Part shown: one piece after another, positions 22,861 through 64,000 of the stretch
Layout of the letters: each line of letters opens with the position of its first letter
Position numbering within the stretch: the first letter of the stretch is position 1
Assembly: GCA_025526935.1 (NCBI GenBank)
Contig: JAHLKD010000098.1
Coordinates: 62,001 to 126,000 of the forward strand
Direction of reading: 5' to 3'
Length of the DNA: 64,000 nt
Origin: Cladochytrium replicatum
Taxonomy: Eukaryota > Chytridiomycota > Chytridiomycetes > Cladochytriales > Cladochytriaceae
The notes under the pieces: model-generated
The model's input: only the letters and a program-made list of their open reading frames with translations
Told to the model about the DNA's origin: nothing
Database searches by the model: none
Position numbers and translations under genes: made by a program

Positions 22861-22886
22861 GCCGCCTTGCAGGCTCCACCAACAAC

Positions 22887-26534: not shown

Positions 26535-28542
26535 TTGTGACAGGTCGTGTTTTCCAGGCACCCACTGGGTCACTGATGGGTACGAAGGGAATACCTGGAC
26601 CCGAAGTGGTTGAAACCCGGACCCAAAGTGGTGGAAACCCGTACATGACTCTGACCCACCGGGTTTTTGCTGCCCAGGAGAGTATTGATTGAACTTGTGT
26701 TAGACCACAGATATTTACATGAACACTTTGTGTCTGTGTGGACAGTGTGTTATTTAGAAACACTATCGTAAAAAGAAACAAACAATCACAAGTTGATAGG
26801 TGGAACAGCCCAAATCAGAGTCTGTATCTGGTTCATATCGTCAAGTCCCATCCACCACTGGTTACGTCCTTTGCCAACCAGTCCTGATGAACCAATCAAT
26901 GTCGTCATTTGAAAGCATGAAATCCTTGGCTAAACCTGTCTTCCAAGGTTTCCAATCCACCTCAGGGAGCGTTATAGATGAAAGATTCCCGATGTATGCC
27001 GTCCAGAACCTTAGCCACTCAGAAGGATATCCATCCACTAATGCCCTGAACATGCGAGAGATGGAGGCAGACGTACTTTGCGAATTGATGTGCCATATCC
27101 AGTTTCCAAGCAAAATGTGCACCTTAAGAAGAGTGAGGCTGCTCCGAGAACTGCTACTTGAAGTTGATGTTCGGCTTGAGCGGTCATCAGATTCAACAAA
27201 TATGGGCCGTAAGAACTCATTTCGGGAGATGCCTACCTGGTTAACGCTGACGTACTTGATTGATGGTTGAAGAGACGGCAATTTAAGGTCATAAATAACC
27301 TCATTGATCTTATGCATCTGGAAGCAGATACCCTGGATGACCTCTTTCACCAAAAGGATAGCTGTACGACGGTGCTGCTGCAGGCTAAGCAATGCAAGGG
27401 AACTGGTTGGAGAACTGGTTCGATGTACCTTCGGAATTCTACCAATCCCCTTGATAGCCGACGATATGCTTATTAGGCCGCCTGTTGATGTTGGCGCCGC
27501 AGGTGCTGCAGCTTCTGAATGACCAGCCTGTCGTTTCAGAGCAGCAAGCTCTCCCTCCAGGGTGGTCACACGTGATTTCCATTGTGAAATCTCCTGGGAA
27601 GCCGCCTGCTTCTCTGTTTCCATTGCAGCTGTGATCTCCCTGAATCTTGCTAGCTCTTCGTGCTCGCCGTGCTGAATCAATGCACCCGCCCTGCCCAATT
27701 CATCAATGAGAGCCTTCTCTCGCACTTCTGCTGCGATGCGGGTCCTTCTCTCGTTCATTGCAGTCTCTTCAAGATCTTTTGTCATGTTCACCAGTCGTTC
27801 TGACTGTTTGAGGACCTGTTTTGTCCTTTCACGGTCCTCATCTGCTCATTTGATGGTCGCTTGGAACTCTTCAACCTTTGCAGTGACAGGTATTCCTCTG
27901 TAAATGCCGTACTTGTGTCCCTGCCGCCTGTAAAGTCCAGAAATGTTGTTTCCTTCTGAAAGGAAGAGCTTTTCAAGCACTCCATACAATAGGCGTTTGC
28001 TGCTGTTATGAACTCCGTTCGTCCACTGCATTCATCGTGAATTTCATTCAGGGCTTGACGAACTAGCTTGCTGTCAGAATCAAGTCGGTCGATCAACCCT
28101 TGAAGAACAAATCTTAGGCCGCATTCATCACGATTTGTTTGACAGTTGCTGATGAAGTCCTCCGAGTCATAGCTGTGGCCGCTTGCTTTGAATTTTCGAT
28201 ACCAAAGTCGTATGTCTGAAGCAGGACAGAGTCCGTCGATGCGCAAATAGTCAGCATCCCCTTTAGTACCCCACCACGTCGCGCTGGTTTCTTTGAAGGA
28301 ACTGTCGATTTGACATCAAGGCCTACTTCTGCTTCTTCTACTTCAGAACCCGATCCCAGAGATGTTTCAGGTGCAGTCACCGGTTCTGCACTTGATTCTC
28401 TTTCAGATGATGGTTTGGATTGTTTCAAAGCTCACTTCTTTGTAGTTCAAGGCATGGTGCTTGTAATGTTTGTGGTGGGTCAGGTACATTTGGTCAATGG
28501 ACCCGGATCTGACCCAAAAGACCCTAAACCCGCCGATCCTTA
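26535..28542 (-). mobile_element. ORF560 unit, copy 1 (degenerate left end, right hAT-like end)
   Basis: The left part (26,535-26,800) matches the left end seen at 62,443-62,760 but has lost its outermost bases. The coding part spans 26,800-28,440. The right part ends in ...gaccctaaacccgccgatcc-tta at 28,542, which is the same terminus as the hAT copies (33,761; 46,005; 56,674). The flanking 8 bp on the right are ttcaccac; no matching copy is visible on the left because that end is eroded. Confidence 0.65.
26800..28440 (-). pseudogene. ORF560 protein gene, broken copy 1
   Basis: Homologous along its whole length to the intact gene at 40172-41854, but inactivated. There is an in-frame CGA-to-TGA stop near 27,846 (ATIK-stop-ADEDRER), a 1-bp deletion near 27,930 (YRRQG preceded by SGL in place of FLDF), and a further frame change near 28,265. 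The C-terminal portion survives as a 309-residue open frame (26862-27791). The protein family is described at the intact copy. Confidence 0.85.
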
Positions 28543-29920: not shown

Positions 29921-32900
29921 TAAGGATCGGCGGGTTTTAGGGTCTTTCGGGTCGGGTCCGGGTCCATTGACTAAATGTACCCGACCCGAGTGCCGGGTTT
30001 TCATGGAAAATTTTCGGGTCGGATCCGGGTCGGGTATCGGGTCCAGTAGCAAAACCCTTCTCGGGTCAAAAGTCAGACCCGAGTAAAACCCGATGTGATA
30101 GAGAATCTAAAACGAAGCTATTGTTCTTTCTGTCCACGCAGACACTTTCCAAGAAGACGCAATATAAGTTTTGTATGTATCAAACAATTTTGCATCACAA
30201 CAGACATCGAGGCATGTATTTTCTGTCCACCCGGACACTTTCTCAACTCATTGACGTACTTCAGTTATCTCTACCCAATACAACTAACCTCTCTATCAAT
30301 GTTACTAGCAATAAGATTCTGTCCACCCGGACACTTTCTTAACTCATTGACGGTACTTGAGTGATCTCTATCAAGTACAACTAACATCTCTATCAATGTT
30401 ACTAGCAATAAGATTCTGTCCACCCGGACACTTTCTCAACTCATTGACGTACTTCAGTTATCTCTACCCAATACAACTAACCTCTCTATCAATGTTACTA
30501 GCAATACGATTCTGTCCACCCAGACACTTTCTCAACTCATTGACGGTACTTAAGTGATCCCTATCAAGTACAGCTAACCTCTCTAATAATGTTACTAGCA
30601 ATAAGATTCTGTCCACCCGGACACTTTCTCAACTCATTGACGGTACTTCACTGATACTTCACTGATCTCGATCAAGTACAACCAACCTCTCTTCAAATAC
30701 CACTTGTAATAGCATTCTGTCCAGGCAGTCGCTTTCTCAACTCCTGGACGGTACTTCAACAGATGAACAGTCTAAACAACAATTTATATTTAAAAGAGTG
30801 GGTTATCATCAGTTGCTTCCAACTCTAATACCACATCAAAATCCTCGCCAAAATTATGCACCTTTACAAAATCCTTACTAACATCACTTTTTGAATCTAG
30901 GGAATCATTTTTGAACGGTTCTTCAGCACTCAATTGATGCAACCAGTCATGACGGCACATCAACGCATTTATTGTTCTTGGAGCAAGGTGGTTGCGAGTT
31001 GCAGGTACCAAATCAACCCCGGCTGAAAACTTTCGTTCGACTGGAGCGCTTGTTGCTGGTATTCCTAAATAGTCCATTGCCATCTGGCTTAGGGCTGGAA
31101 AGTTCACACTTCCAATGGTCTTCCACCAGTCCATAATATTGATTGGCTTCCCATCAGAATCAATACCGCGGAGTACCTGATCGCCAAGATAGCGATCCAG
31201 CTCATCTTTTTCCTCAGGAATCTCTTCTTGCCAGATGAAAATGGATCTAATGGCTCTCAAGCGTTCAGCGTCAGTTTTTTTCTGTCTATCACCGGAAGCT
31301 CCACTCGAATCGTGTCAACGTTCTGGCGTGTTTCCAAAAACATCGGCACCACTGTTCTTGATTTTCCGTGACTTATACAATTCCTCCCAGACTTTTCGCA
31401 CTAGGGTGACCTGATCCCTTCCTACATCTTTCTCCCAAGCCTTTGAAAATCGATAATATTGATCCTTAAAACGAGGATCGAGTACCGTAGCAACTGCTAA
31501 ACACGGGCTCTTAGCGATTGAGTAATATATTCTCAGCTTATCTAGTGCATTTCGAAATGCTTTGGTGAAAGTTTCATCCAATTCTGCATCCTCTAGGTCC
31601 TCCAGTTGATCGATAAGATCGTTGTAAAATGGAATAACAAGCGGAAGTGTTGGATATCTAGACCCCTCGATTGCCTTTGATATAACCACGAAAACACTCA
31701 AACCATCCCAGATCTTCTGTAGGACCTCCCATTGCTTTGGATTTATTGACCAATCTTTCAAAGAATCTTCAATCCAGCATATTTTGTCCATTGCCTCTCG
31801 TAGCTGTAAGGCTCGTTTGACCATATAGAACGTGCTATTCCAGCAAGTTGTCACATCGATAATTGGTAATAGAGGAACCAGTTTCACAAATCGACACAAA
31901 TCAATAAATGAGCTTCGTCGTTTTGGGGAAGACCGGATTCCTCTGACTAGCCGTCGAAGAAGGTTTATGACATTAACGCCGGAGTTATCGTCATTTGCGA
32001 CTGTGTCCCCTGCGGGCGCGAATGAATCGATAAAATCCTTTGCTGCAAGATTGATAATGTGTGCCATACACCGCATGTGTTGAGTTTCTGCAGACCACGC
32101 AATATCCCTATCTTCCAAGAGCGTCTCCAGCTTAGCACTCATGGTAAAGTTGTTTGAACCGTTGTCGGTTGTAATGCACAATAACCTTCACCCGATAGCA
32201 TGCCAAATTCATCCAGACACTTGACAAGCTGACTAGCCATGGCGACGCCTTCATGCTTTCCAACCATCGGAATCATCTGCAGCAGCAAGTCCTGCGGCTC
32301 CCATTCTTTCGTGATGAAGTGGGCAGTAATTCCAAGAAAAGAAATCTGGTTCTTCGATGTCCAACAGTCAGCTGTTATTGATACTTTTGAAGGCGAACCA
32401 ACAATCAGACCTTTAATGAGCTCCTTCTGCCTATCGTAAAGATCCATCTCCTTTTGCTTCACTGCTTTTGCCGTCTTTGGTGTATAGTTTGGCTGAAAAG
32501 TCTTCAGCATGCTGACAAAGAACTCTTTCTCCACAACAGTAAAAGCCTGATTGTCTGCAGCAATCCAGTCCAAAATCGACCGCCACGCTACGTCTGGATT
32601 GAACACAAAGTTTTGCTCCTTCTCCTGCGAGCCGAAATTGAATGTCTGTTGTCCCTCGGGGACGATGTCCAACAGTCCAAGCGACCTGGCAATACTTCTA
32701 TGGTGGTTTTTCAGATGCCTGAGGAAGTTTTTTGTTGATCCCATCTTATCGACCTTCTGGCTCCACTTGCATTTCATAACCAAACATGTTCTCAGTCCAT
32801 TATCAACCTTATAGTAATCCTTTGCTACGCCGCCTTGACTACCTCTACAGTCCGGCATGCTATCAACATCTGCGTCTGATGAAAGCATTGATGGTTGAAC

Positions 32901-33761
32901 TGATCCAGCTGCAGGCTCCTGTCGCACTGAAGAGTCAGCAAAACTAACGTCGGCAGGAAGCTCTGGTGCATGCTGAGAAGCCAGGCCCAACTCGCTGGAG
33001 TCATTGGAAGAAGATGTGGAGCTCGGCTCTCGAGTGCTGTTGTTGCCACTGTGTCCTGATACACGTCTGCGTTTGTCCTGCATGCTGTTCCCCTCGCTGG
33101 ACGCCTCTGAAATTTGGGGGGCTGGCAGACTTCGCTTCCGTGTGTCAAGCGGATGACTGTCCACCAGTCTTTGGCTTGCGTCGGACGCTGCCTTACGCTT
33201 TGGTTTAACAAAGGCGGCGTCCATTTTTGCTGTGGTGTGGCTGGAACGTTACCGACTCTAAGTGTCCAGGTGCACAGAAAGCACAGCTCTCGAGGTCTGT
33301 TGTGGTAGAAATTGTTTGTTACAGAACTTCTGTTGTGACTTCTTGGAAAGCGTCTGGGTGGGACAGAATCGTATTGCTAGAAACATTGATAGAGAGGTTA
33401 GTTGTACTTGATGATCACTGAAGTACCGTCAATGAGTTGAGAAAGTGTCCGGGTGGACAGAAAATACATGCCTCGATGTCTGTTGTGATGCAAATTGTTT
33501 GATACATACAAAAGTTATATTGCGTCTTCTTGGAAAGTGTCTGCGTGGACAGAAAGAACAATAGCTTCGTTTTAGCTTCTCTATCACATCGGGTTTTACT
33601 CAGGTCTGACTTTTGACCCGAGAAGGGTTTTCCTACTGGACCCGATACCCGACCCAGACCCGACCCGAAAATTTTCCATGAAAACCCGGCACTCGGGTCG
33701 GGTGCATTTGGTCAATGGACCCGGACCCGACCCGAAAGACCCTAAAACCCGCCGATCCTTA
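29921..33761 (-). mobile_element. hAT DNA transposon, copy 1, both terminal inverted repeats present
   Basis: The left terminus is TAAGGATCGGCGGGTTTTAG at 29,921 and the right terminus is its reverse complement ending at 33,761. The terminal inverted repeats extend at least 100 bp and are built from GGGTC/CGGGT pentamers. Inside the left end a near-palindrome TGTCCACCCGGACA recurs at 30,224, 30,320, 30,417, 30,513 (one variant) and 30,610, spacing 96-97 bp, as expected for subterminal transposase-binding repeats. The transposase gene lies on the minus strand. The 8-bp flanks differ (acctcgag left, ggacctac right), so the two ends did not come from one simple insertion. The right flank is inside the copia relic. 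Confidence 0.85.
30790..33224 (-). pseudogene. hAT transposase, copy 1, inactivated
   Basis: The N-terminal frame (33224-32139) has a basic, Ser-rich leader, a BED-type zinc finger (C-x4-C ... HLKNHH at CLVMKCKW...KNFLRHLKNHH) and the first catalytic-Asp block DCWTSKNQISFLGITAHFI. The middle frame (32181-31315) has TTDNGSNNFTMSAKLE (second Asp), MRCMAHIINLAAKD and WNSTFYMVKRAL. The C-terminal frame (31260-30790) has the dimerisation block YLGIPATSAPVERKFSAG with the catalytic Glu. Lesions are a frameshift near 32,188 and a CGA-to-TGA stop near 31,314. An active version would cut and paste the element; this copy cannot. Confidence 0.9.
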
Positions 33762-34643: not shown

Positions 34644-34859
34644 ATCATTCATAGTGACTTTGATCTGAATGTGTTTGATGGCAGTGTTGTGATGGAATCA
34701 CCACAGGGATTGATACGGATGTGTTGAACAAGAATGAAGACATAAAATCAATGGCAATTGATGTGAATAGTTGCAAGATGAGATGAGACATTGTCATGAC
34801 CCTCCTCTTATTAATGGAAGTAGTGAAAAGCCTCCCGCTACATCGTCGCCATCTGTCAA

Positions 34860-35840: not shown

Positions 35841-36447
35841 GTTCGGCTATGTTAGGTTGGGTTGGGGGGTGTGGCACTGCGGGGGCTTTGGTGGTGTGAA
35901 ATCAATGACTTGGTGGTGTGAAATCAATGACTTCCAGTTCAACTACCAGATGGTGTCGTGGGAGGGATAAAGATGTTGAAGAGATGGAAATTGTTGCGCG
36001 TGATTGGTTTGAGGGAACAGAGGGTTTTGGGCGTCCTAACGATTGTTCCCAGGACCGGAGACAGGAAGGTAAGATGGTTGGTTTGGATCTAAACTGGTCT
36101 GATTTACTAGAAAAAGGGGATAACCTATTTATGCATTTTTTGTGCGCAGCTTAGAAGTTGAAGTTAATGAAAGAACATTAAAGTATGAGTAATAATAATA
36201 ATCACACCATCGCTGGAGGTGGGGTAAAGATAAGAGAAATGAAAAAGATTATAGAGAAATGTTAAGTGGGGAAAGTCTGGGTGGGTCTTCAGAGCCGCGA
36301 AACGTGCGTGTTTTCTTTTTGGGTGTAGGTAAGCATTGTTGTTTCTGTATTTAGTTCTTTGGACATCATTGTTTTCATACCATTCCTTATAAGCAAATAA
36401 TACGAAATCACCTCAACGGGGATGTTGCGACGAGTTTGTTGGACCAC

Positions 36448-36605
36448 TCACACCCCACCACGGAGTCTCCTCCTCACCATCTCGAACCCACCGACCCCAA
36501 CAGGAACCCCAACCCCATCGTCCGCAATCGCAACCTTGAAATGCGGATGCGCAAGCGCCCCCGGGGCCGTGATCCGCATCGCAGGGTTGGGTGCTCTCGA
36601 CTTTG
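36448..36605 (-). pseudogene. Relic last exon of a protein kinase, copy 2
   Basis: Equivalent of 22,118-22,275. The motif reads NPAMRITAPGALAHPHF, so Thr, Lys and Tyr of the copy 1 version are replaced. The stop codon is at the same place. A decayed exon. Confidence 0.4.
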
Positions 36606-37216
36606 CTTCCCGCCAGCTCGCTGTGAGCCTCGTGACAAACCTACGCAAAGCGTTCGTGCGAATCAAGGTTATTGCCAGGACAAGACCCTTGTGATCCCCA
36701 AGGTGAAGACCTGCCAAGTCCCGGCCTCGTCTCTGATGGTCCACGTTGAGTCGGCTATTGTTGAATTTGAGGTATGTGCAATTGATCTGCGCAAATCTTC
36801 AATAACTGTGTCTGATCTGGCAGCCGATTGAGGCTACTGTGGACCATCCTGAGGTGAGCTCCATCTCTCATCTCTGACGACGAGAACGCAAGTGCAAGTG
36901 CACAAGATTGGTCGCTTCCTGTAACCCACAACATCGATGATCCTGAGGATCACGAACACACCCTGCACACAGACGAAAACATTCCGGAAGAAGAGCGTGT
37001 TGCTCGGGTCGCTGGGACCTGCTTGCGATCCGTCTCGAGTGTTCTCGACTTCACTTGCCAGTTCGCTGTGAGCAAAATGGCCTCGATTTGATGAGACGGC
37101 TTCAGGCTGATCATGAATCATCTGTTAGGACATGACTCTCTTGATGCCTGAGGAGACGGTCTACGACATCCAGGTTCGGTCATGCCCATCGCCTCCTTGC
37201 AGGCTCCACCAACAAC

Positions 37217-38375
37217 ATGAACACCCCAGACAAGAACGACCCACACAACTCGCTCCCAAAGCAGCCATCCAGCACCAGCAGCAGCGGCAATGGATCATAA
37301 TCTTTACCGATCTCCTTCCCACTCCAACCATCTGTCCTGTCAGGTCTGGGCATGGGCTATGCCCAACAACAACTGGCCCACCTACACCATAGACCAACCT
37401 TCTCGTGTCACCTCAGGCAAGGACACCGCACCTGTCCCCGCCGACTCACTTCATACCCCCTCTTCTCGGGTTTACAATCACCCCGTCACCCCATAGCTTC
37501 CAACCCAACACGACCCCTCTTTTTGGTACATACCCGTCCTTCGACTCCCTAACACTCAGCACTCCGGCCGTGCCTATCCCGGCACTGGTATTCGAATCCC
37601 CTGTTCCGACTGACTACTTCTCTGGACTCGGACTCACCGCGCCTTATGATCCATATTCGCAACTTCTTCCTCTCGACATGGGAGGTTTCACTTTGACGCA
37701 AGGAGACCCTGCTGCCGGAGTGACTGGCCAAAACGTCACAGAGTTTGACTTCTTCGCCTCGTTGATGCACAACTCCACAACCACCACTGCGACGACGACA
37801 GCGGGATCAGTCGAGCCGCCGCCGGAAACGCCCACGCCGCAAATCACGATGTTCGAGCAAATCTCCACGACCTTTGTCGAAGACGTTCTCGCCGAGCACC
37901 CAACCGGCTCCACCACAACCATCCCCCCCGGGCTCACAATCCTCTTCTTCCTCGAGCACATCCCCTTCCTCGAACACGGACGACGATCCCGAAAACATGT
38001 CTGCATGACCATGAGCCAGCTCCGGTCCCTGATCATCGCATCCCAAAACGCCAACCGCGTTCTCGCAGCACCACCCCTAACCTGCACGTGCACGCACCAC
38101 CTCCCACCACCAACCCCCGCCACGCCAGTCGTCGTTGTCGGCCCGAAACGCCACCGCCCCGCGAAACTCTTCATATGCCCGCACCAGGGGCTGCACGCGC
38201 TCCTTCACCCGGCGGTTCAACTATGAAACCCACCTGGAAACGCACTACCCGAAAAGGGAGAAGAAGTACGCGTGCGACGTCGGTGCGTGCTGCAAGGTGT
38301 TCTTCAGGTCGTACGACCTCAGCGCCACGCTGCAAAGAGCCACGGCGTGGCTGCGGAGCCGAAAGGGTCGTGTAG
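37217..38375 (+). pseudogene. C2H2 zinc-finger gene, copy 2, nonsense and frameshifts
   Basis: Same start (MNTPDKNDPHNSL) as copy 1 but with an early stop after GNGS (near 37,298) and several frame changes: an extra base in a C-run near 37,925, and a G-run near 38,185 that splits finger 1. The second finger reads CDVGACCKVFFRSYDLSATL, with the Lys-Arg-His end disrupted by a small rearrangement. Clearly non-functional. Confidence 0.75.
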
Positions 38376-39269
38376 GGCCGCGGCCGGGGGGTGTGGACCG
38401 CGAGCCGCCGGTTGCGGAGGTGAGGGGGGGAGGTGGAGGTGGTTTTTGGGCAATGGCAAGGTGAAGGTGGAGTTGGGCAAGGAGGAGGAGGAGGAGGATG
38501 GGGAGGAGCAGAGCCGGTCGGATTGGGCGGGGGATGAGTGATTTGTACGGCCACAGGGGTTCCACCAACAACTGTGACAGAATGTATCTTTTTCCTTTCT
38601 TCTCCAGGCCAAATTCTTAGCGATCGCACTTTTGATTTTGGTTTCATTTCAACTTTGGCCGCCTCCTCATCCTAACCTGTCATTACTGCTGTGTGCAAAA
38701 AACAACGGAACTTCGGGATTCCTTTTTCTTTTCGTTTTATTGTATCTCTTCTGCGCTATCGCTCGCTCTCTCCGATATTGGTTTTGCCCAAAATATAGCA
38801 GAGAACGTTCACAGTAGCTTGACTGCAACAATCGTTCTTTCAGATCAACCGTATTTTTTTGGGGAAGTTATGATATTCATCAGCCAATCGCTGCAAAACT
38901 TTCGTTGCGACCATTGCTCGGACAATTGCTCAGACTTCATCATGTGTTTAACAACACAACCCACTGCCCACTGTTCCGAGAAGCACACCTGGAGAATCAT
39001 CCCCCACAAGTATGCACGCTTGCCTTTCAACCTGTCGTATTGTCTTGGAAAAAGCAATTCACCATCCAGATGCCTCAAGATCACTGTTTAAAATGCTCCC
39101 TAATGCAGTGATTGGACAAGGGATGTTGAATGATTTTCTGGCCATCTTGATCATCAGGGTTGTTTCGGGAAGACCAGCTTGCCACAACGCGCCTTCCTAC
39201 CACCGCCGGTCCTTTCATTTTGGTGTGGCAGGTTACTCCAGCCCTGTAAGATTTAAGGCACATGCTGGT

Positions 39270-39575
39270 GATTTCTACCCACCGAAGATTACTCTCACTG
39301 ACGCCAGTTCCGCCCCCACCAACGCCTTCGCCAATCAGACAGTTCTTGGCGCTTACCAGCTATGTGTAAGCAAACAAAAATGTTCCTATGATTCATTGTA
39401 CATACTATATTTGTGTTTGGCCAAAGACGATCTCCGATCGTTGATCAACAGTGATATTATCCTCTTGGTCGAAGGGCAGATCAGTGAATGGCTGTGCGGA
39501 GTGAATGGCTGTGCAGACGCAACGGACTTGGATGGCGACAGGCTCTCTGTCATATTGAGGATGGCTGTTGTGTAA
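39270..39575 (+). CDS. Conserved unknown reading frame, copy 2
   Basis: Equivalent of 24,985-25,272. In this copy one fewer base in the presumed intron lets a single frame (39,012-39,575) read through it, a useful reminder that the intron is only inferred. It contains the same DDLRSLINSDIILLVEGQIS block. Unknown function; possibly an unconstrained relic. Confidence 0.3.
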   Translation, partial: DFYPPKITLTDASSAPTNAFANQTVLGAYQLCVSKQKCSYDSLYILYLCLAKDDLRSLINSDIILLVEGQISEWLCGVNGCADATDLDGDRLSVILRMAVV

Positions 39576-40066
39576 AGTGGGTTTGATGGGACGAGGAAAT
39601 CACTAACCTGCTCGGCTAAACTGTTCAGAATCATTATAATAGTGTGGTGGATCAACTTACGATAGTATCGGCAACTGGCGCACTTTCTTGGATGCAGTCA
39701 TCAAGCGCCAACGCCTAGAACAGATTCAGAATGAAAGCGCCATGTCGAAAGGTGGAATGAGTCTTACCGTGATGAATCTTGAATTTGTTTGAACATTGGA
39801 TCCCTCGGCATTGTTCTGCGTATGGTGTATGCTTCGCTCAACAAGTTGTTGGATCCATTTCGGCCATGAAATTTGCTGTACAAACCAAGTGTAACCTCAG
39901 AATTCAGATCTACGGGAATATACACCAACATTGAAGGTCCAGTTGTTGTGATGGCGGTGGATTCCTGAACACCGCGTTCAGGAATCCATTGATAAAAATC
40001 GCCTTGCTGTGATATGATATTAGGGATCTACACAAAAAATTTTTAAGTACCCATGGATTGCCAACA

Positions 40067-41885
40067 ATTTTGAGTTAGACCACGGATATTTACATGAACA
40101 CTTTGTGTCTGTGTGGACAGTGTGTATTTTAGAAACACTATCGTAAAAAGAAACAAAACTCCACTGAGCAATCACAGGTTGATAGGTGGAACAGCCCAAA
40201 TCAGCTTCTGTATCTGGTTCATATCGTCAGAGTCCCATCCACGACTGGTTACGTCCTTCGCCAACCCAGTCCTGATGAACTGATCAATGTCATCATTTGA
40301 AAGCATGAAATCCTTGGCTAAACCTGTCTTCCAAGGTTTCCAATCCACCTCAGGGAGCGTTATGGACGAAAGATTCCCGATGTATGCCGTCCAGAACCTT
40401 AGCCACTCAGAAGGATATGCATCCACTAATGCCCTGAACATGCGATAGATAGTGGCAGACGTACTTAGCGAATTATTGTGCCGTATCCAGTTTCCGAGCA
40501 AAATGTGCACCCTAAGAAGAGTAAGGCTGCTCCGAGAACTGCTACTTGAAGTTGATATTCGGCTTGAGCGGTCGTCTGATTCAACAAATATGGGCCGTAA
40601 AAACTCATTTCGGGAGAGGACTTCGTAGTTTACATTGACGTACTTGATTGATGGTGGAAGAGACGGCAATTTAAGGTCATAAATAACCTCATTGATCTTA
40701 TGCATCTGGAAGCAGATACCCTGGATGACCTCTTTCACCAAAAGGATAGCCGTACGACGATGCTGCTGCAGGCTAAGCAATGCAAGGGAACTCGTTGGAG
40801 AACTGGTTCGATGTACCTTCGGAATTCTACCAATCCCCTTGATAGCCGACGATATGCTTATTAGGCCGCCTGTTGATGTTGGCGCCGCAGGTGCTGCAGC
40901 TTCTGAATGACCAGCCTGTCGTTTCAGAGCAGCAAGCTCTCCCTCCAGGGCGGTCACACGTGATTTCCATTGTGAAATCTCCTGGGAAGTTGCCTGCTTC
41001 TCCCTTTCCATTGCAGCGGTGATCTCCCTGAATCTTGCTAGCTCTTCGTGCTCGCCGTGCTGAATCAATGCACCCGCCCTGCCCAATTCATCAATGAGAG
41101 CCTTCTCTCGCACTTCTGCTGCGATGCAGGTCCTTCTCTCGTTCATTGCAGTCTCTTCAAGATCTTTTGTCATGTTCAACAGTCGTTCTGACTGTTTGAG
41201 GACAAGTTTTGTCCTTTCACGGTCCTCATCTGCTCGTTTGATGGTCGCTTGGAACTCGTCAACCTTTGCAGTGACGGGCATTCCTCTGTAAATGCCGTAC
41301 TTGTGTCCCTGCCGCCTGTAAAAGTCCAGAAATGTTGTTTCCTTCTGAAAGGAAGAGCTTTTCAAGCACTCCATACGATAGGCGTTTGCTGCTGTTATGA
41401 ACTCCGTTCGTCCACTGCATTCATCGTGAATTTCGTTCAGGGCTTGACGAACTAGCTTGCTGTCAGAGTTAAGTCGGTCGATCAACCCTTGAAGAACAAA
41501 TCTTGGGCCGCATTCATCACGATTTGTTTGACAGTTGCTGATGAAGGCCTCCGAGTCGTAGCTGTGGCCGCTCGCTTTGAATTTTCGATACCAAAGTCGT
41601 ACGTCTGAAGCAGGACAGAGTCCGTCGATGAGCAAATAGTCAGCATCCCCTTTAGTACCACGTCGCGCTGGTTTCTTTGAAGGAGCTGTCGATTTGATAT
41701 CTGTCGATTTGACATCAAGGCCAACTTCTGCTTCTTCCACTTCAGAACCCGATGCCAGAGATGTTTCAGGTGCAGTCACAGGTTCTGCACTTGATTCTCT
41801 TTCAGATGATGGTCTGGATTGTTTTAACGCTCGCTTCTTTGTAGTTCGAGGCATGGTGTTTGTACTGTTTGTCGTGGGAAGATAC
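40067..41885 (-). mobile_element. ORF560 unit, copy 2, without visible terminal repeats
   Basis: The left edge is a sharp junction with segment copy 2 ('gccaaca' then 'attttgagttagaccac'). It starts about 195 bp inside the left terminus seen at 62,443. The right edge is lost about 30 bp beyond the start codon (about 41,885), where other copies run on into the GGGTC-rich end. This copy, the only one with an intact protein, therefore lacks both presumed termini. Confidence 0.6.
40172..41854 (-). CDS. ORF560: unrecognised coiled-coil protein of the repeated unit, intact copy
   Basis: Single exon, 560 residues. Residues 1-68 are basic and Ser/Thr-rich (MPRTTKKRALKQSRPSS), nuclear-signal-like. 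Residues 70-190 form a probable small folded domain with conserved Cys/Trp/Tyr (LLIDGLCPASDVRLWYRKF, SNCQTNRDECGPRFVLQGLI, FYRRQGHKYGIYRG). Residues 196-312 are a long coiled coil (heptads through ERLLNMTKDLEETAMNERR to SRVTALEGELAALKRQ). An Ala/Pro linker and a helical C-terminal half follow, with a Ser run and a Trp-rich end (PSEWLRFWTAYIGNLSSI). No catalytic motif of a transposase, helicase or nuclease was found. It is repeated at 26,800-28,440, 53,213-53,772, 56,170-56,620 and 62,742-64,000, all broken or partial. Function unknown. Confidence 0.75.
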   Translation of the reverse strand: MPRTTKKRALKQSRPSSERESSAEPVTAPETSLASGSEVEEAEVGLDVKSTDIKSTAPSKKPARRGTKGDADYLLIDGLCPASDVRLWYRKFKASGHSYDSEAFISNCQTNRDECGPRFVLQGLIDRLNSDSKLVRQALNEIHDECSGRTEFITAANAYRMECLKSSSFQKETTFLDFYRRQGHKYGIYRGMPVTAKVDEFQATIKRADEDRERTKLVLKQSERLLNMTKDLEETAMNERRTCIAAEVREKALIDELGRAGALIQHGEHEELARFREITAAMEREKQATSQEISQWKSRVTALEGELAALKRQAGHSEAAAPAAPTSTGGLISISSAIKGIGRIPKVHRTSSPTSSLALLSLQQHRRTAILLVKEVIQGICFQMHKINEVIYDLKLPSLPPSIKYVNVNYEVLSRNEFLRPIFVESDDRSSRISTSSSSSRSSLTLLRVHILLGNWIRHNNSLSTSATIYRMFRALVDAYPSEWLRFWTAYIGNLSSITLPEVDWKPWKTGLAKDFMLSNDDIDQFIRTGLAKDVTSRGWDSDDMNQIQKLIWAVPPINL

Positions 41886-42230
41886 TGGCCCGGTTCTTAG
41901 CCGGAATGTTACAGGAATGTATGCTATAATACTTCCCTGACACTATAGTTTTCTACCCGATCTGAAAATAATAATAAGCTAGGGAAGAAACTGGCTAGTA
42001 ACATTGATAGAGAGGATTCTGTCCGGGTGGACAGAATCTTATTGCTAGTAAAATTGATAGAGAGGTTAGCTGTACTTGATAGAGATCACTGAAGTACGGT
42101 CAATGAGTTGAGAAAGTGTCCGGGTGGACAGAATCTTATTGCTAGGAACATTAATAGAGAGGTTAGCTGTACCTGATAGAAATTACTGAAGTACCGTCAA
42201 TGAGTTGAGAAAGTGTCCGGGGGGACAGAA

Positions 42231-42291
42231 TCCTATTCTACCCAGACAGACACAGTGACACTCAGTCTCCCAGATTTCTGTCCACCCGGAC
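42231..42291. repeat. Non-repeated spacer of about 45 bp between inverted hAT subterminal arrays
   Basis: Between GGACAGAATCC and TTTCTGTCC lies a unique spacer (tattctacccagacagacac... to ...tctcccaga). The same spacer is found at 54,252-54,312 in exactly reversed-complement orientation relative to its flanking arrays. Inverted arms thus surround a spacer that has flipped in one of the copies. Confidence 0.9.
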
Positions 42292-42744
42292 ACTTTCTCA
42301 ACTCATTGACGGTACTTCAGTAATCTCTATCAGGTACAGCTAACCTCTCTACAAATACTACTAGCAATAGGATTCTGTCCACCCGGACACTTTCTCAACT
42401 CATTGACGGTACTTCAGTGATCTCTACCCAATACAACTAACCTCTCTATCAATGTTACTAGCAATAGGATTCTGTCCACCCGGACACTTTCTCAACTCAT
42501 TGACGGTACTTCAGTGATCTCTATCAAGTACAGCTAACCTCTCTAATAATGTTACTAGCAATAAGATTCTGTCCACCCGGACACTTTCTCAACTCATTGA
42601 CGGTACTTCACTGATACTTCACTGATCTCGATCAAGTACAACCAACCTCTCTACAAATACTACTTGTAATAGGATTCTGTCCAGGCGGTCGCTTTCTCAA
42701 CTCCTGTACTTTAACAGATGAACAGTCTAAACAACAATTTATAT

Positions 42745-45181
42745 TTAAAAGAGTGGGTTATCATCAGTTGCTTCCAACTCTAATACCACATCAACATCCT
42801 CGCCAAAATTATGCACCTTTACAAAATCCTCACTAACATCACTTTTTGAATCTAGGGAATCATTTTTGAACGGTTCTTCAGCACTCAATTGATGCAACCA
42901 GTCATGACGGCACATCAACGCATTTATTGTTCCTGGAGCAAGGCGGTTGCGAGTTGCAGGTACCAAATCAACCCCGGCTGAAAACTTTCGTTCGACTGGA
43001 GCGCTTGTTGCTGGTATTCCTAAATAGTCCATTGCCATCTGGCTTAGGGCTGGAAAGTTCACACTTCCAACGGTCTTCCACCAGTCCATAATATTGATTG
43101 GCTTCCCATCAGAATCAATACCGCGGAGTACCTGATCGCCAAGATAGCGATCCAGCTCATCTTTTTCCTCAGGAATCTCTTCTTGCCAGATGAAAATGGA
43201 TCTAATGGCTCTCAAGCGTTCAGCGTCCGTTTTTTTCTGTCTATCACCGGAAGCTCCGCTCGAATCGTGTCGACGTTCTGGCGTGTTTCCAAAAACATCG
43301 GCACCACTGTTCTTGATTTTCCGTGACTTATACGATTCCTCCCAGACTTTCCGCACTAGGGTGACCTGATCCCTTCCTACATCTTTCTCCCAAGCCTTTG
43401 AAAATCGATAATATTGATCCTTAAAACGAGGATCGAGTACCGTAGCAACTGCTAAACACGGGCTCTTAGCGATTGAGTAATATATTCTCAGCTTATCTAG
43501 TGCATTTCGAAATGCTTTGGTGAAAGTTTCATCTAATTCTGCATCCTCTAGGTCCTCCAGTTGATCGATAAGATCGTTGTAAAATGGAATAACAAGCGGA
43601 AGTGTTGGATATCTAGACCCCTCGACTGCCTTTGATATAACCTCGAAAACACTCAAACCATCCCGGATCTTCTGTAGGACCTCCCATTGCTTTGGATTTA
43701 TTGACCAATCTTTCAAAGAATCTTCAATCCAGCATATTTTGTCCATTGCCTCTCGTAGCTGTAAGGCTCGTTTGACCATATAGAACGTGCTATTCCAGCG
43801 AGTTGTCACATCGATAATTGGTAATAGAGGAACCAGTTTCACAAATCGGCACGAATCAATAAATGAGCTTCGTCGTTTTGGGGAAGACCGGATTCCTCTG
43901 ACTAGCCGTCGAAGAAGGTTTATGACATTAACGCCGGAGTTATCGTCATTTGCGACTGTGTCCCCTGTGGGCGCGAATGTATCGATAAAATCCTTTGCTG
44001 CAAGATTGATAATGTGTGCCATACACCGCATGTGTTGAGTTTCTGCAGACCACGCAATATCCCTATCTTCCAAGAGCGTCTCCAGCTTAGCACTCATGGT
44101 AAAGTTGTTTGAACCGTTGTCGGTTGTAATGCACAATAAGCGTTCACCCGATAGCATGCCAAATTCATCCAGACACTTGACAAGCTGACTAGCCATGGCG
44201 ACGCCTTTCATGCTTTCCAACCATCGGAATCATCTGCAGCAGCAAGTCCTGGGGCTCCCATTCTTTCGTGATGAAGTGGGCAGTAATTCCAAGAAAAGAA
44301 ATCTGGTTCTTCGATGTCCAACAGTCAGCTGTTATTGATACTTTTGAAGGCGAACCAACAATCAGACCTTTAATGAGCTCCTTCTGCCTATCGTAAAGAT
44401 CCATCTCCTTTTGCTTCACTGCTTTTGCCGTCTTTGGTGTATAGTTTGGCTGAAAAGTCTTCAGCATGCTGACAAAGAACTCTTTCTCCACAACAGTAAA
44501 AGCCTGATTGTCTGCAGCAATCCAGTCCAAAATCGACCGCCACGCTACGTCTGGATTGAACACAAAGTTTTGCTCCTTCTCCTGCGAGCCGAAATCCAAT
44601 GTCTGTTGTCCCTTGGGGACGATGTCCAACAGTCCAAGCGACCTGGCAATACTTCCATGGTGGTTTTTCAGATGCCGGAGGAAGTTTTTTGTTGATCCCG
44701 TCTTATCGACCTTCTGGCTCCACTTGCATTTCGCAACCAAACATGTTCTCAGACCATTATCAACCTTATAGTAATCCTTCGCTATGCCGCCTCGACTACC
44801 TCTACAGTCCGACATGCTATCAACATCTGCGTCTGATGAAAGCATTGATGGTTGAACTGATCCAGCTGCAGGCTCCTGTCGCACTGAAGAGTCAGCAAAA
44901 CTAACGTCGGCAGGAAGCTGTGGTGCATGCTGAGAAGCCGGGCCCAACTCGCTGGAGTCATTGGAAGAAGATGTGGAGCTCGGCTCTCGAGCGCTGTTGT
45001 TGCCACCGTGTCCTGATACACGTCTGCGTTTGTCCTGCATGATGTTCCCCTCGCTGGACGCCTCTGAAATTTGGGGGGCTGGCAGACTTCGCTTCCGTGT
45101 GTCAAGCGGATGACTGTCCACCAGTCTTTGGCTTGCGTCGGACGCTGCCTTACGCTTTTTTTTAACAAAGGCGGCGTCCAT
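42745..45181 (-). pseudogene. hAT transposase, copy 2, single frameshift
   Basis: The best-preserved hAT transposase: two frames, 45181-44189 (BED finger CLVAKCKW...KNFLRHLKNHH, then DCWTSKNQISFLGITAHFI) and 44220-42745 (VAMASQLVKCLDEFGMLSGE, TTDNGSNNFTMSAKLE, MRCMAHIINLAAKDFI, WNSTFYMVKRALQLRE, YLGIPATSAPVERKFSAG). One extra T near 44,208 shifts the frame between them; copies 1 and 3 lack it. All three catalytic acidic positions and the C-terminal dimerisation region are present. If the extra base were a sequencing error this would be the one candidate source of active transposase in the window. Confidence 0.9.
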
Positions 45182-46134
45182 TTTTGCTGTGGTGTGGCTG
45201 GAACGTTACTGACTCTAAGTGTCCAGGTGCACAGAAAGCACAGCTCTTGAGGTCTGTCGTGGTAGAAATTGTTTGTTACAGAACTTCCGTTGTGACTTCT
45301 TGGAAAGTGTCCGGGTGGACAGAATCGTATTGCTAGTAACATTGATAGAGGTTAGTTGTACTGGGTAGAGATAACTGAAGTACGTCAATGAGTTGAGAAA
45401 GTGTCCGGGTGGACAGAATCCTATTGCTAGTAACATTGATAGAGAGGTTAGCTGTACTTGATAGAGATCACTGAAGTACCGTCAATGAGTTGAGAAAGTG
45501 TCCGGGTGGACAGAATCGTATTGCTAGTAACATTGATAGAGGTTAGTTGTACTGGGTAGAGATAACTGAAGTACGTCAATGAGTTGAGAAAGTGTCCGGG
45601 TGGACAGAATCTTATTGCTAGTAACATTGATAGAGAGGTTAGTTGTATTGGGTAGAGATAACTGAAGTACGTCAATGAGTTGAGAAAGTGTCCAGGTGGA
45701 CAGAAAATACATGCCTCGATGTCCGTTGTGATGCAAAATTGTTTGATACATACAAAACTTATATTGCGTCTTCTTGGAAAGTGTCCGCGTGGACAGAAAG
45801 AACAATAGCTTCGTTTTAGATTCTCTATCACATCGGGTTTTACTCGGGTCTGACTTTTGACCCGAGAAGGGTTTTCCTACTGGACCCGATACCTGACCCG
45901 GATCCGACCCGAAAATTTTCCATGAAAACCCAGCACTCGGGTCGGGTACATTTAGTCAATGGACCCGGACCCGACCCGAAAGACCCTAAAACCCGCCGAT
46001 CCTTATTGATGACTGCATCCAAGAAAGTGCGCCAGTTGCCGATACTATCGTAAGTTGATCCACCACACTATTATAATGATTCTGAACAGTTTAACCAAGC
46101 AGGTTAGTGATTTCCTCGTCCCATCAAACCCACT

Positions 46135-46435
46135 TTACACCACAGCCATCCTCAATATGATGGAGAGCCTGTCGCCATCCAAGTCCGTTGCGTCTGCACA
46201 GCCATTCACTCCGCACAGCCATTCACTGATCTGCCCTTCGACCAAGAGGATAATATCACTGTTGATCAACGATCGGAGATCGTCTTTGGCCAAAACACAA
46301 ATATAGTATGTACAATGAATCATAGGAACATTTTTGTTTGCTTACACATAGCTGGTAAGCGCCAAGAACTGTCTGATTGGCGAAGGCGTAGGTGGGGGCG
46401 GAACTGGCGTCAGTGAGAGTAATCTTTGGTGGGTA
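46135..46435 (-). CDS. Conserved unknown reading frame, copy 3
   Basis: Minus-strand equivalent of 24,985-25,272 and 39,270-39,575, with the same SDIILLVEGQISEWLCGVNG block and the same putative intron. Unknown function. Confidence 0.3.
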
Positions 46436-50786: not shown

Positions 50787-51002
50787 TTGACAGATGGCGA
50801 CGATGTAGCGGGAGGCTTTTCACTACTTCCATTAATAAGAGGAGGGTCATGACAATGTCTCATCTCATCTTGCAACTATTCACATCAATTGCCATTGATT
50901 TTATGTCTTCATTCTTGTTCAACACATCCGTATCCATCCCTGTGGTGATTCCATCACAACACTGCCATCAAACACATTCAGATCAAAGTCACTATGAATG
51001 AT

Positions 51003-53212: not shown

Positions 53213-53772
53213 AAAAAAATACGGCATTTCCAGAGGAATGCCTGTCACTGCAAAGGTTGAAGAGTTCCAAGCGACCATCAAACGAGCAGATGAGGACCGT
53301 GAAAGGACAAAACTTCTCCTCAAACAGTCAGAACGACTGTTGAACATGACAAAAGATCTTGAAGAGACTGCAATGAACGAGAGAAGGACCCGCATCGCAG
53401 CAGAAGTGCGAGAGAAGGCTCTCATTGATGAATTGGGCAGGGCGAGTGAATTGATTCAGCACGGCGAGCACGAAGAGCTAGCAAGATTCAGGGAGATCAC
53501 CACTGCAATGGAAAGGGAGAAGCAGGCGGCTTCCCAGGAGATTTCACAATGGAAATCACGTGTGACCGCCCTGGAGGGAGCGCTTGCTGCTCTGAAACGA
53601 CAGGCTGGTCATTCAGAAGCTGCAGCACCTGCGGCGCCAACATCAACAGGCGGCCCAATAAGCATATCGTCGGCTATCAAGGGGATTGGTAGAATTCCGA
53701 AGGTACATCAAACCAGTTCTTCAACGAGTTCCCTTGCATTGCTTAGCCTGCAGCAGCACCGCGTACGGCTAT
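53213..53772 (+). pseudogene. ORF560 gene fragment (coiled-coil part)
   Basis: Starts at the codons for KYGISRGMPVTAKVEEFQAT and runs through the whole coiled coil to SLQQHR, where it is cut by a TAAGGTTCGGCGGGTCCGGG terminus at 53,773. The interrupted target is ...acggctat, the ordinary coding sequence at this point (compare 56,219-56,227). Residues matching the N-terminal 185 and the C-terminal 180 of the intact protein are missing. Confidence 0.85.
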
Positions 53773-54583
53773 TAAGGTTCGGCGGGTCCGGGTCAGGTCC
53801 GGGTTTCAGTGGCGACCCGCACCAAACCCTTTGGGTCGGGTCGTGTTTGTCTGGGGACCCGCCGGGTCACTGACGGGTACAAAGGGAATACCCGGACCCG
53901 AAGTGGTTGAAACCCGTACCGGACCCTGACCCGCCCGGTTTTTGCTGCCCAGGAGAGGATTGATTGAATTTTGAGTTAGACCACGGATATTTACATGAAC
54001 ACTTTGTGTCTGTGTGGACAGTGTGTATTTTAGAAACACTATCATAAAAAGAAACAAAACTCCAATCACAAGTTGATAGGAGGTTGGTTGTACTTGATCG
54101 AGATCAGTGAAGTATCAGTGAAGTACCGTCATGAGTTGAGAAAGTGTCCGGGTGGACAGAATCTTATTGCTAGTAACATTATTAGAGAGGTTAGCTGTAC
54201 TTGATAGAGATCACTTAAGTACCATCAATGAGTTGAGAAAGTGTCCGGGTGGACAGAAATCTGGGAGACTGAGTGTCACTGTGTCTGTCTGGGTAGAATA
54301 GGATTCTGTCCACCCGGACACTTTCTCAACTCATTGATGGTACTTAAGTGATCTCTATCAAGTACAGCTAACCTCTCTAATAATGTTACTAGCAATAAGA
54401 TTCTGTCCACCCGGACACTTTCTCAACTCATTGATGGTACTTCACTGATACTTCACTGATCTCTATCAGGTACAGCTAACCTCTCTTCAAATACTACTCG
54501 CAATAGGATTCTGTCCAGGCGGTCGCTTTCTCAACTCCTGGACGGTACTTTAACAGATGAACAGTCTAAACAACAATTTATAT

Positions 54584-56165
54584 TTAAAAGAGTGGGTTAT
54601 CATCAGTTGCTTCCAACTCTAATACCACATCAAAATCCTCGCCAAAATTATGCACCTTTACAAAATCCTCACTAACATCACTTTTTGAATCTAGGGAATC
54701 ATTTTTGAACAGTTCTTCAGCACTCAATTGATGCAACCAGTCATGACGGCACATCAACGCATTTATTGTTCTTGGAGCAAGGCGATTGCGAGTTGCAGGT
54801 ACCAAATCAACCCTGGCTGAAAACTTTCGTTCGACTGGAGCGCTTGTTGCTGGTATTCCTAAACAGTCCATTGCCATCTGGCTTAGGGCTGGAAAGTTCA
54901 CACTTCCACCGGTCTTCCACCAGTCCATAATATTGATTGGCTTCCCATCAGAATCAATACCGCGGAGTACCTGATCGCCAAGATAGCGATCCAGCTCATC
55001 TTTTTCCTCAGGAATCTCTTCTTGCCAGATGAAAACGGATCTAATGGCTCTCAAGCGTTCAGCGTCCGTTTTTTTCTGTCTATCACCGGAAGCTCCGCTC
55101 GAATCGTGTCGACGTTCTGGCGTGTTTCCAAAAACATCAGCACCACTGTTCTTGATTTTCCGTGACTTATACGATTCCTCCCAGACTTTCCGCACTAGGG
55201 TGACCTGATCCCTTCCTACATCTTTCTCCCAAGCATTTGAAAATCGATAATATTGATCCTTAAAACGAGGATCGAGTACCGTAGCAACTGCTAAACACGG
55301 GCTCTTAGCGATTGAGTAATATATTCTCAGCTTATCTAGTGCATTTCGAAATGCTTTGGTGAAAGTTTATCCAATTCTGCCTCCTCTAGGTCCTCCAGTT
55401 GATCGATAAGATCGTTGTAAAATGGAATAACAAGCGGAAGTGTTGGATATCTAGACCCCTCGACTGCCTTTGATATAACCTCGAAAACACTCAAACCATC
55501 CCGGATCTTCTGTAGGACCTCCCATTGCTTTGGATTTATTGACCAATCTTTCAAAGAATCTTCAATCCAGCATATTTTGTCCATTGCCTCTCGTAGCTGT
55601 AAGGCTCGTTTGACCATATAGAACGTGCTATTCCAGCGAGGTGTCACATTGATAATTGGTAATAGAGGAACCAGTTTCACAAATCGGCACGAATCAATAA
55701 ATGAGCTTCGTCATTTTGGGGAAGGCCGGATTCCTCTGACTAGCTGTCGAAGAAGGTTTATGACATTAACGCCGGAGTTATCGTCATTTGCGACTGTGTC
55801 CCCTGCGGGCGCGAATGTATCGATAAAATCCTTTGCTGCAAGATTGATAATGTGTGCCATACACCGCATGTGTTGAGTTTCTGCAGACCACGCAATATCC
55901 CTATCTTCCAAGAGCTTCCAGCTTAGCACTCATGGTAAAGTTGTTTGAACTGTTGTCAGTTGTAATGCACAATAAGCGTTCACCCGATAGCATGCCAAAT
56001 TCATCCAGACACGTGACAAGCTGACTAGCCATGGCGACGCCTTCATGCTTTCCAACCATCGGAATCATCTGCAGCAGCAAGTCCTGCCTCCCATTCTTTC
56101 GTGATGAAGTGGGCAGTAATTCCAAGAAAAGAAATCTGGTTCTTCGATGTCCAACAGTCAGCTGT
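54584..56165 (-). pseudogene. hAT transposase fragment, copy 3
   Basis: C-terminal two thirds of the transposase: the dimerisation block (YLGIPATSAPVERKFSA variant, with Arg replacing Gly after Ala), WNSTFYMVKRAL, MRCMAHIINLAAKD, TTDNSSNNFTMSAKLE and ITADCWTSKNQISFLGITAH. Small deletions near 55,370, 55,917 and 56,088 break the frame. The N-terminal third, with the BED finger, is replaced from 56,170 by ORF560 sequence. Confidence 0.9.
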
Positions 56166-56169
56166 TATT

Positions 56170-56620
56170 GAAACCAGTTCTCCAACGAGTTCCCTTGCAT
56201 CGCTTAGCCTGCAGCAGCACCGTCGTACGGCTATCCTTTTGGTGAAAGAGGTCATCCAGGGTATCTGCTTCCAGATGCATAAGATCAATGAGGTTATTTA
56301 TGACCTTAAATTGCCGTCTCTTCCACCATCAATCAAGTACGTCAACGTAAACTACGAAGTCCTCTCCTGAAATGAATTTTTATGGCCCATATTTGTTGAA
56401 TCAGACGACCGCTCAAGCCGAATATCAACTTCAAGTAGCAGTGCTCAGAGCAGCCTTACTCTTCTTAGGGTGCACATTTTGCTCGGAAACTGGATACGGC
56501 ACAACAAATCGCTAAGTACGTCTGCCACTATCTATCGCATGTTCAGGGCATTAGTGGATGCATATCCTTCTGAGTGGCTAAGGTTCTGGACGGCATACAT
56601 CAGGCATCTTTCGTCCATAT
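56170..56620 (+). pseudogene. ORF560 gene fragment (C-terminal part) inside the composite element
   Basis: Matches the intact protein from TSSPTSSLA through ILLVKEVIQGICFQMHKINE to SEWLRFWTAYI, then runs directly into the GGGTC-rich right end. It carries the same CGA-to-TGA stop (VLS-stop-NEF, 56,369) and the same neighbouring change (FLWPIF in place of FLRPIF) as the copy at 62,742, so these two share ancestry to the exclusion of the intact copy. Confidence 0.88.
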
Positions 56621-62442: not shown

Positions 62443-64000
62443 TAAGGTTCGGCGGGTCCGGGTCGGGTCCGGGTTTCAGTGGCGACCCGCACCAAACCCT
62501 TTGGGTCGGGTCGTGTTTGTCTGGGGACCCGCAGGGTCACTGACGGGTACAAAGGGAATACCCGGACCCGAAGTGGTTGAAACCCGTACCCGACCCTGAC
62601 CCGCCGGGTTTTGCTGCCCAGGAGAGGATTGATTGAATTTTGAGTTAGACCACGGATATTTACATGAACACTTTGTGTCTGTGTGGACAGTGTGTATTTT
62701 AGAAACACTATCGTTAAAAGAAACAAAACTCCACTGAGCAATCACAAGTTGATAGGTGGAACAGCCCAAATCAGCTTCTGTATCTGGTTCATATCGTCAG
62801 AGTCCCATCCACCACTGGTTACGTCCTTCGCCAACCCAGTCCTGATGAACCGATCAATGTCGTCATTTGAAAGCATGAAATCCTTGGCTAAACCTGTCTT
62901 CCAAGGTTTCCAATCCACCTCAGGGAGCGTTATGGACGAAAGATGCCCGATGTATGCCGTCCAGAACCTTAGCCACTCAGAAGGATATGCATCCACTAAT
63001 GCCCTGAACATGCGATAGATAGTGGCAGACGTACTTAGCGAATTATTGTGCCGTATCCAGTTTCCGAGCAAAATGTGCACCCTAAGAAGAGTAAGGCTGC
63101 TCCGAGAACTGCTACTTGAAGTTGATATTCGGCTTGAGCGGTCGTCTGATTCAACAAATATGGGCCATAAAAATTCATTTCAGGAGAGGACTTCGTAGTT
63201 TACGTTGACGTACTTGATTGATGGTGGAAGAGACGGCAATTTAAGGTCATAAATAACCTCATTGATCTTATGCATCTGGAAGCAGATACCCTGGATGACC
63301 TCTTTCACCAAAAGGATAGCCGTACGACGATGCTGCTGCAGGCTAAGCAATGCAAGGGAACTCGTTGGAGAACTGGTTCGATGTACCTTCGGAATTCTAC
63401 CAATCCCCTTGATAGCCGACGATATGCTTATTAGGCCGCCTGTTGATGTTGGCGCCGCAGGTGCTGCAGCTTCTGAATGACCAGCCTGTCGTTTCAGAGC
63501 AGCAAGCTCTCCCTCCAGGGCGGTCACACGTGATTTCCATTGTGAAATCTCCTGGGAAGTTGCCTGCTTCTCCCTTTCCATTGCAGCGGTGATCTCCCTG
63601 AATCTTGCTAGCTCTTCGTGCTCGCCGTGCTGAATCAATGCACCCGCCCTGCCCAATTCATCAATGAGAGCCTTCTCTCGCACTTCTGCTGCGATGCAGG
63701 TCCTTCTCTCGTTCATTGCAGTCTCTTCGAGATCTTTTGTCATGTTCAACAGTCGTTCTGACTGTTTGAGGACAAGTTTTGTCCTTTCACGGTCCTCATC
63801 TGCTCGTTTGATGGTCGCTTGGAACTCGTCAACCTTTGCAGTGACGGGCATTCCTCTGTAAATGCCGTACTTGTGTCCCTGCCGCCTGTAAAAGTCCAGA
63901 AATGTTGTTTCCTTCTGAAAGGAAGAGCTTTTCAAGCACTCCATACGATAGGCGTTTGCTGCTGTTATGAACTCCGTTCGTCCACTGCATTCATCGTGAA
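62443..64000 (-). mobile_element. ORF560 unit, copy 5, intact left terminus, runs off the window
   Basis: The left terminus TAAGGTTCGGCGGGTCCGGG starts at 62,443 and is followed by about 300 bp of end sequence with CGGGT/GACCC pentamers, then the ORF560 gene on the minus strand. The outer 8-bp flank is gtcctagc. The right end lies beyond the window. By comparison with 26,535-28,542 the complete unit would be about 2.1 kb. Confidence 0.7.
62742..64000 (-). pseudogene. ORF560 protein gene, copy 5, partial, one nonsense codon
   Basis: Nearly identical to the intact gene from its C-terminus (VPPINL at 62,742) back to about residue 142 at the window edge. A CGA-to-TGA change at 63,180-63,182 (VLS-stop) separates a 254-residue upstream part from a 112-residue C-terminal frame. 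Otherwise no lesions are seen, so the inactivation is recent. Confidence 0.88.

Follow-up and report, generated by a model that had tools for sequence, protein, structure and literature searches.

Transposons of the hAT superfamily, which includes Ac, Tol2, and the fungal Restless, usually encode a transposase only, a state that is usual rather than defining. DNA transposons with two genes, in which the transposase is accompanied by an accessory protein, are known in other superfamilies, namely En/Spm (TnpA and TnpD), MuDR (mudrA and mudrB), and Harbinger (with a Myb-like protein); the VANDAL elements belong to the MULE superfamily. The VANC protein of VANDAL21 in Arabidopsis is reported to bind short motifs in variable tandem repeats and to remove methylation from its own family (PMC5735166). 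In Pseudocercospora fijiensis, histone H3 is reported as a captured gene on hAT elements of ~9.5 kb, where its copies were inactivated by RIP (PMC6710886). Full-text searches of an open-access library listed no title or opening abstract describing a two-gene hAT element.

The window analyzed here is the whole stretch of 64,000 nucleotides comprising bases 62,001 to 126,000 of contig 98 (JAHLKD010000098.1) of Cladochytrium replicatum, whose genome spans 50.5 Mb in 198 contigs. A preliminary description had drawn attention to an open reading frame of 560 amino acids (ORF560), which is present at 40,172 to 41,854 on the minus strand, and had placed it in a unit that extends from 40,067 to 41,885 and recurs at five sites. 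The extent of the unit was established by comparing 20 genomic copies, in which similarity runs upstream of ORF560 through an array of 97-bp repeats into a hAT transposase gene. The unit does not end at 41,885 but continues through the array and the transposase gene to a 5' tip at 46,005, and 40,067 proved to be a truncation rather than a boundary. The complete element is 6 to 8 kb long and consists, in order, of the 5' tip, a GGGTC-rich end, a 97-bp array, the hAT transposase gene (811 amino acids), a 97-bp array, ORF560 as the downstream gene, a GGGTC-rich end, and the 3' tip. The sequences show that the transposase gene and ORF560, in tandem between asymmetric tips and with 8-bp target duplications, have multiplied together. 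This anatomy is well established, whereas what ORF560 does is an inference. The features of the window are as follows.

40067..46005, minus strand: hAT element copy with ORF560; 5' tip at 46,005; cut off at 40,067, with the last ~194 bp and the 3' tip missing
45984..46005, minus strand: 5' tip TAAGGATCGGCGGGTTTTAGGG, the 22 bp with which the terminal inverted repeat and GGGTC-rich end begin
45303..45705, minus strand: 97-bp array lying upstream of the transposase, with GTCCACCCGGAC in its units
42748..45181, minus strand: hAT transposase gene with one frameshift (ORFs 44,189-45,181 and 42,745-44,220); intact copies encode 811 amino acids
42276..42703, no strand assigned: 97-bp array separating the transposase from ORF560 and oriented oppositely to the 5' array
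42020..42237, no strand assigned: 97-bp units adjoining ORF560, inverted relative to 42,276-42,703
40172..41854, minus strand: ORF560, the second gene, with a central helical coiled coil at about residues 194-313
26612..28542, minus strand: ORF560-only copy, diverged and frameshifted (ORF560 at 26,789-28,455); 5' tip TAAGG-A-TCGGCGGGT at 28,542 (minus)
29921..33761, no strand assigned: transposase-bearing copy without ORF560; transposase at 30,793-33,224 (minus); 5'-type tips at both ends
53217..53772, plus strand: initial part of an ORF560 copy that is probably split
53773..56171, minus strand: part of an element, lying between the first and second ORF560 pieces, with a 3' tip at 53,773, 97-bp units, and a partial transposase (54,587-56,174)
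56172..56619, plus strand: remaining part of that ORF560 copy, followed by a 5'-type tip at 56,674 (minus)
62443..64000, minus strand: 3' half of another element, with 3' tip TAAGG-T-TCGGCGGGT at 62,443 (plus); ORF560 runs from 62,745 past the end of the window and contains one TGA

The tips are TAAGGATCGGCGGGTTTTAGGG at the 5' end and, on the opposite strand, TAAGGTTCGGCGGGTCCGGGTC at the 3' end. The two ends are asymmetric, and both carry TAAGG(A/T)TCGGCGGGT, in agreement with the short terminal inverted repeats and the YARNG tip consensus of hAT elements. Tips of this type had been proposed for the first and last of the five sites and were found at 28,542 (minus) and 62,443 (plus), although no 3' tip could be located at the left end of the 26,612 to 28,542 copy with up to three substitutions allowed. 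Related sequence was present at all five sites, but these probably represent four copies, given that two of them are pieces of a gene that overlap by 63 bp (53,217 to 53,772 and 56,172 to 56,619), have ~2.4 kb of same-family sequence between them, and are probably one split ORF560 copy. Beside the transposase-bearing copy there is an additional 5' end (29,459 to 29,863), and the flanks of 29,459 to 33,761 do not match. The transposase of the element at 62,443 is located outside the window (C98:127,516-129,948) and contains one TGA. No target duplication was seen around the copies in the window, the exact duplications described below being those of other genomic copies. The copy at 40,067 to 46,005 can probably no longer move as a whole, because its transposase is frameshifted and ~194 bp of its 3' end is missing.

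This copy is flanked by two of the three copies, in opposite orientations, of a ~5- to 6-kb segment that occurs in the window with 95 to 96% identity (20,397 to 25,745, 33,766 to 40,066, and 46,006 to 51,879, the third inverted). By eye, one end of the third copy appears to encode a Copia-type RNase H. A Ras-family ORF at 3,719 to 5,044 (plus strand, E value of 3.3e-22) is an ordinary host gene, and Rfam at the gathering threshold gave no match over the whole window. The genome contains 22 chitin-synthase matches above the Pfam cut-off, several of them pieces of one gene, which point to a probable fungal source. It also has five DNA-methylase domain matches over the cut-off.

The transposase itself is an ordinary hAT transposase, and it is the two-gene element around it that is unusual. 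The intact protein of 811 residues matched the hAT C-terminal dimerization domain (PF05699) at 2.1e-20, with 72.7 bits versus a cut-off of 21.4 bits, which places it in the superfamily; the transposase of the window copy matched Dimer_Tnp_hAT at 1.4e-20. The hAT-like RNase-H profile (PF14372) scored 23.6 bits, below its cut-off of 27 bits. The intact transposase matched Hermes at 2.1e-12, with ITADCWTS and PVERKFS aligned to TIDLWTD and ASERTFS of Hermes, the blocks of a catalytic D and of the E, respectively; the alignment of the first block is weak, with an i-Evalue of 33 on its own. The second catalytic D is presumably that of TTDNGS, and we likewise assume the identity of the catalytic residues in the aligned Hermes blocks. 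Membership in the hAT superfamily stands despite the two genes, since a single gene is not what defines it.

With the exception of one pair whose gap of 3,811 bp was set aside, the 25 pairs listed (24 remaining) have a distance of ~901 + 97k bp between the transposase and ORF560, and the length of the array changes in steps of about one 97-bp unit. The genome contains 1,909 occurrences of a 20-mer of this unit, versus 0 for the control, and all 23 of the GTCCNNNNGGAC sites in the window lie inside element copies. In an alignment of 372 units, GTCCACCCGGAC is near-invariant at its 12 positions, with a mean divergence of 0.011 versus 0.091 elsewhere in the unit. Given that 12 of the 97 twelve-base windows of the unit diverge even less than GTCCACCCGGAC, the conserved block (~33 bp) is wider than the palindrome alone. 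Its placement before each of the two genes is what might be expected of a binding site.

At a tolerance of two mismatches, 294 5' tips and 338 3' tips were counted in the genome, versus 0 in the reversed-pattern controls. These counts, together with the 99 to 100% identity of the best 40 full-length ORF560 matches scored (the window's own included), exclude a chance origin of the repeats. ORF560 gave at least 78 matches and its residues 68 to 215 at least 150, with 92 to 100% identity among the best 78 and the best 150 listed. The genome also holds at least 150 hAT dimerization domains and at least 56 full-length transposases, 44 of the 56 listed being free of stops. At least 25 of these 56 are followed by ORF560 on the same strand within 6 kb downstream, and in at least 19 cases both genes are stop-free.

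Mapping of the termini and their flanks, which the preliminary description had proposed as a check, revealed the 8-bp target duplications of a hAT element: they are exact in 17 of the 36 two-ended elements overall, with none agreeing at 9 bp, versus 1 of 1,260 mismatched end pairs. Exact duplications were observed for 12 of the 26 elements with a full-length ORF560 match and for 5 of 10 further tip pairs (L048, L051, L053, L054, and L055). The 26 elements comprise nine additional pairs and the 17 of the 20 compared loci that have both tips; L020, L021, and L024, with no 5' tip within the stretches examined, were left out. Among the 17 exact duplications, 10 have T at position 2 and 12 have A at position 7, the consensus of the Ac group being nTnnnnAn. 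The 19 elements without an exact duplication may have arisen by recombination between copies or may reflect wrong pairing of nested tips. Recombination is possible because a 10-base 5' flank is common to L012 and the C58 copy, and likewise to L009 and L046.

Searches of Pfam, NCBIfam, and PDB revealed no family match to ORF560 beyond coiled-coil noise, and nothing exceeded the curated cut-offs. The profile searches revealed no recognizable transposon domain and, as in the preliminary description, which had seen no transposase catalytic motif, no match to a catalytic domain. Rab11-FIP3, DUF7310, Spc24, Mei5, TPR_MLP1_2, HlyD, SMC, and ATP synthase B were rejected as homologues, their matches lying on the coiled coil and under the cut-offs, as were two PDB matches with E values of about 0.9. 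No relatives were found in the collections of phage records, IMG/VR viral contigs, and bacterial and archaeal genomes that were searched. The AlphaFold2 model, computed from four near-identical sequences, had a mean pLDDT of 43.7 (37.9 for residues 330 to 560 alone), with moderate confidence only for the helices at about residues 194 to 313. Near the N terminus, a DVKST repeat that has two near-copies in the usual form occurs nine times in the L055 variant (L055:312-2096, minus strand), which is open over 595 residues. An apparently divergent ORF560 in L049 (44 to 50% protein identity) was discarded, being 96.7% identical in DNA, N-terminally deleted, and frame-disrupted.

An older copy of ORF560 beside L018 (L018:2846-3805, minus strand) is 84 to 85% identical to the young copies and terminates at a 3' tip that deviates at two positions, which indicates that the pairing of ORF560 with the 3' tip predates the recent burst. 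A further partial match is 98% identical to this copy. The L018 sequence and C110:123,020-123,469 are what is left of an older subfamily, whose identity to the young one is ~85%.

Selection was assessed by comparing the proportion of nonsynonymous changes, N/(N+S), with that expected from a random placement of the same changes that preserved their base and CpG context (2,000 replicates). For five older ORF560 copies pooled, the proportion was 0.601 versus 0.701 expected (P = 0.0005), and for W26k, L018b, and L024b it was 0.572 versus 0.700. Taken singly, the older copies gave P values of 0.004, 0.018, 0.089, 0.107, and 0.435, two of the five being under 0.05. No significant constraint was detected in 13 recent ORF560 copies (0.667 versus 0.711, P = 0.23) or in four transposase copies (0.753 versus 0.707). 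This constitutes moderate evidence for purifying selection on the older ORF560, given that the five copies decayed later and may share ancestry, and are thus possibly not independent. In the ORF560 region of 20 copies, 21 of 24 rare C-to-T variants fall at CpG, which accounts for 212 of the 1,028 C positions, and this suggests that the element copies are CpG methylated.

Taken together, these results probably describe a two-gene cut-and-paste element of the hAT type that was active recently and has ORF560 as its constitutive second gene. This reading is preferred because the two genes lie in tandem within one pair of tips, because ORF560 sequence, whole or partial, is present in 43 of 50 tip-to-tip pairs, and because ORF560 adjoins a 3' tip in the oldest copy observed. 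The 50 pairs were formed by joining tips to the closest one facing them, within the first 100 listed for either end, two pairs sharing one 3' tip; of the other seven, L051 lacks ORF560 and six have no ORF560 match among the matches listed. The preliminary description had left the choice between a captured gene and a second protein, and the latter fits better with the tandem genes, the single pair of tips, and the 8-bp duplications. Its view of an amplified non-transposase gene was misleading, since the transposase was multiplied alongside and the ORF560-only elements look like deletion derivatives.

In a working mechanism, the transposase would catalyze the DNA reactions, and ORF560, which has a coiled coil and no recognizable catalytic domain, would be an accessory factor supplied in cis or in trans. 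It would most likely bind element DNA, and the 97-bp arrays before each gene are, from their position, our guess at the target. Such binding might help the transposase or keep both genes expressed despite silencing by the host. A more specific proposal, which we put forward tentatively, is that the hAT element carries its own accessory or antisilencing gene, whose product would recognize the arrays with GTCCACCCGGAC and protect or activate the element under CpG methylation, as an independent counterpart of VANC in VANDAL elements.

It is unlikely that ORF560 is instead a passenger, a gene that a hAT element took from the host in the distant past and that plays no role in transposition. The histone H3 genes on hAT elements of P. 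fijiensis provide a fungal precedent as reported (PMC6710886), and both the absence of significant constraint in recent copies and the lack of a recognizable transposon domain are in line with it. However, a passenger does not readily account for the presence of ORF560 in most tip-to-tip pairs and in the oldest copy observed, for the 55 of 78 listed copies that are without an in-frame stop, or for the constraint on the pooled old copies. Neither a distinct host homologue nor a low-identity match appeared among the best 78 and 150 matches, lists that are filled by near-identical copies and in which more distant genes would not appear.

Still less probable is that ORF560-only elements are separate entities mobilized by the hAT transposase, with the tandem arrangement being secondary. 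Two such elements, L053 (2,560 bp) and L055, contain ORF560 in an open frame, no transposase match, and exact duplications, and the window copy at 26.6 to 28.5 kb has the same form. Against this, of the 22 tip-to-tip pairs for which an ORF560 match was listed, 19 span 6.0 to 7.9 kb, the size of the two-gene element (the others span 2.6, 9.3, and 11.4 kb). A lone ORF560 was rejected as the general mobile unit. In addition, L053 retains the 5' end of the element and part of a 97-bp array, as expected from an internal deletion. Together with L051, which has a partial transposase, no ORF560, and an exact duplication, L053 and L055 look like internal deletion derivatives moved in trans. Since L051 has its duplication without ORF560, the protein is not needed in cis; since L053 and L055 still moved with an open frame, they were counted in favor of an accessory gene. 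Segmental or tandem duplication without transposition, a process to which other repeats of the window do appear to belong (20.4 to 25.7, 33.8 to 40.0, and 46.0 to 51.9 kb), is refuted for the family by its spread over many contigs, its differing flanks, and the exact 8-bp duplications.

If ORF560, as the second gene of the element, is required or protective, hAT would be a further superfamily with coding capacity beyond the transposase, with a bearing on how hAT elements escape silencing and on the tuning of hAT gene-delivery tools. The young age of the family, its stop-free two-gene copies, and its natural one-gene derivatives make the role of the second protein directly testable.

The element resembles the members of the hAT superfamily (Hermes, Ac, Tol2, and Restless) in its dimerization domain, Hermes-like blocks, TAAGG tips, 8-bp duplications, and subterminal short repeats. 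It is, however, unlike the classical elements in having a second conserved gene and 97-bp arrays before both genes. With the histone H3 elements of P. fijiensis and its relatives, as reported, it shares the condition of a fungal hAT with a non-transposase gene, many copies, and 8-bp duplications (PMC6710886). The cargo of those elements is, however, a recognizable host gene, in contrast with ORF560, which matches no family searched and is stop-free in 55 of 78 listed copies. The likeness to VANDAL21, as that system is described, lies in a non-transposase protein beside the transposase, in noncoding tandem repeats that vary in copy number, and in tandem peptide motifs within the protein, here the DVKST repeats of L055 (PMC5735166). 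VANC carries DUF1985 and DUF287 according to the same report (PMC5735166), and neither was present among the Pfam matches at an E value of ≤10 for the full ORF560, residues 68 to 215, or residues 330 to 560, in searches where HMMER filters drop most matches above ~0.1. On this domain comparison, ORF560 is not a VANC protein. Demethylation and binding are reported for VANC (PMC5735166) and would be candidate activities of ORF560. The proteins of En/Spm, MuDR, and Harbinger also stand beside a transposase, as ORF560 does, but in other superfamilies, and ORF560 gave no Pfam match over the cut-off. By analogy, these accessory proteins would be models for ORF560 equally as good as VANC.
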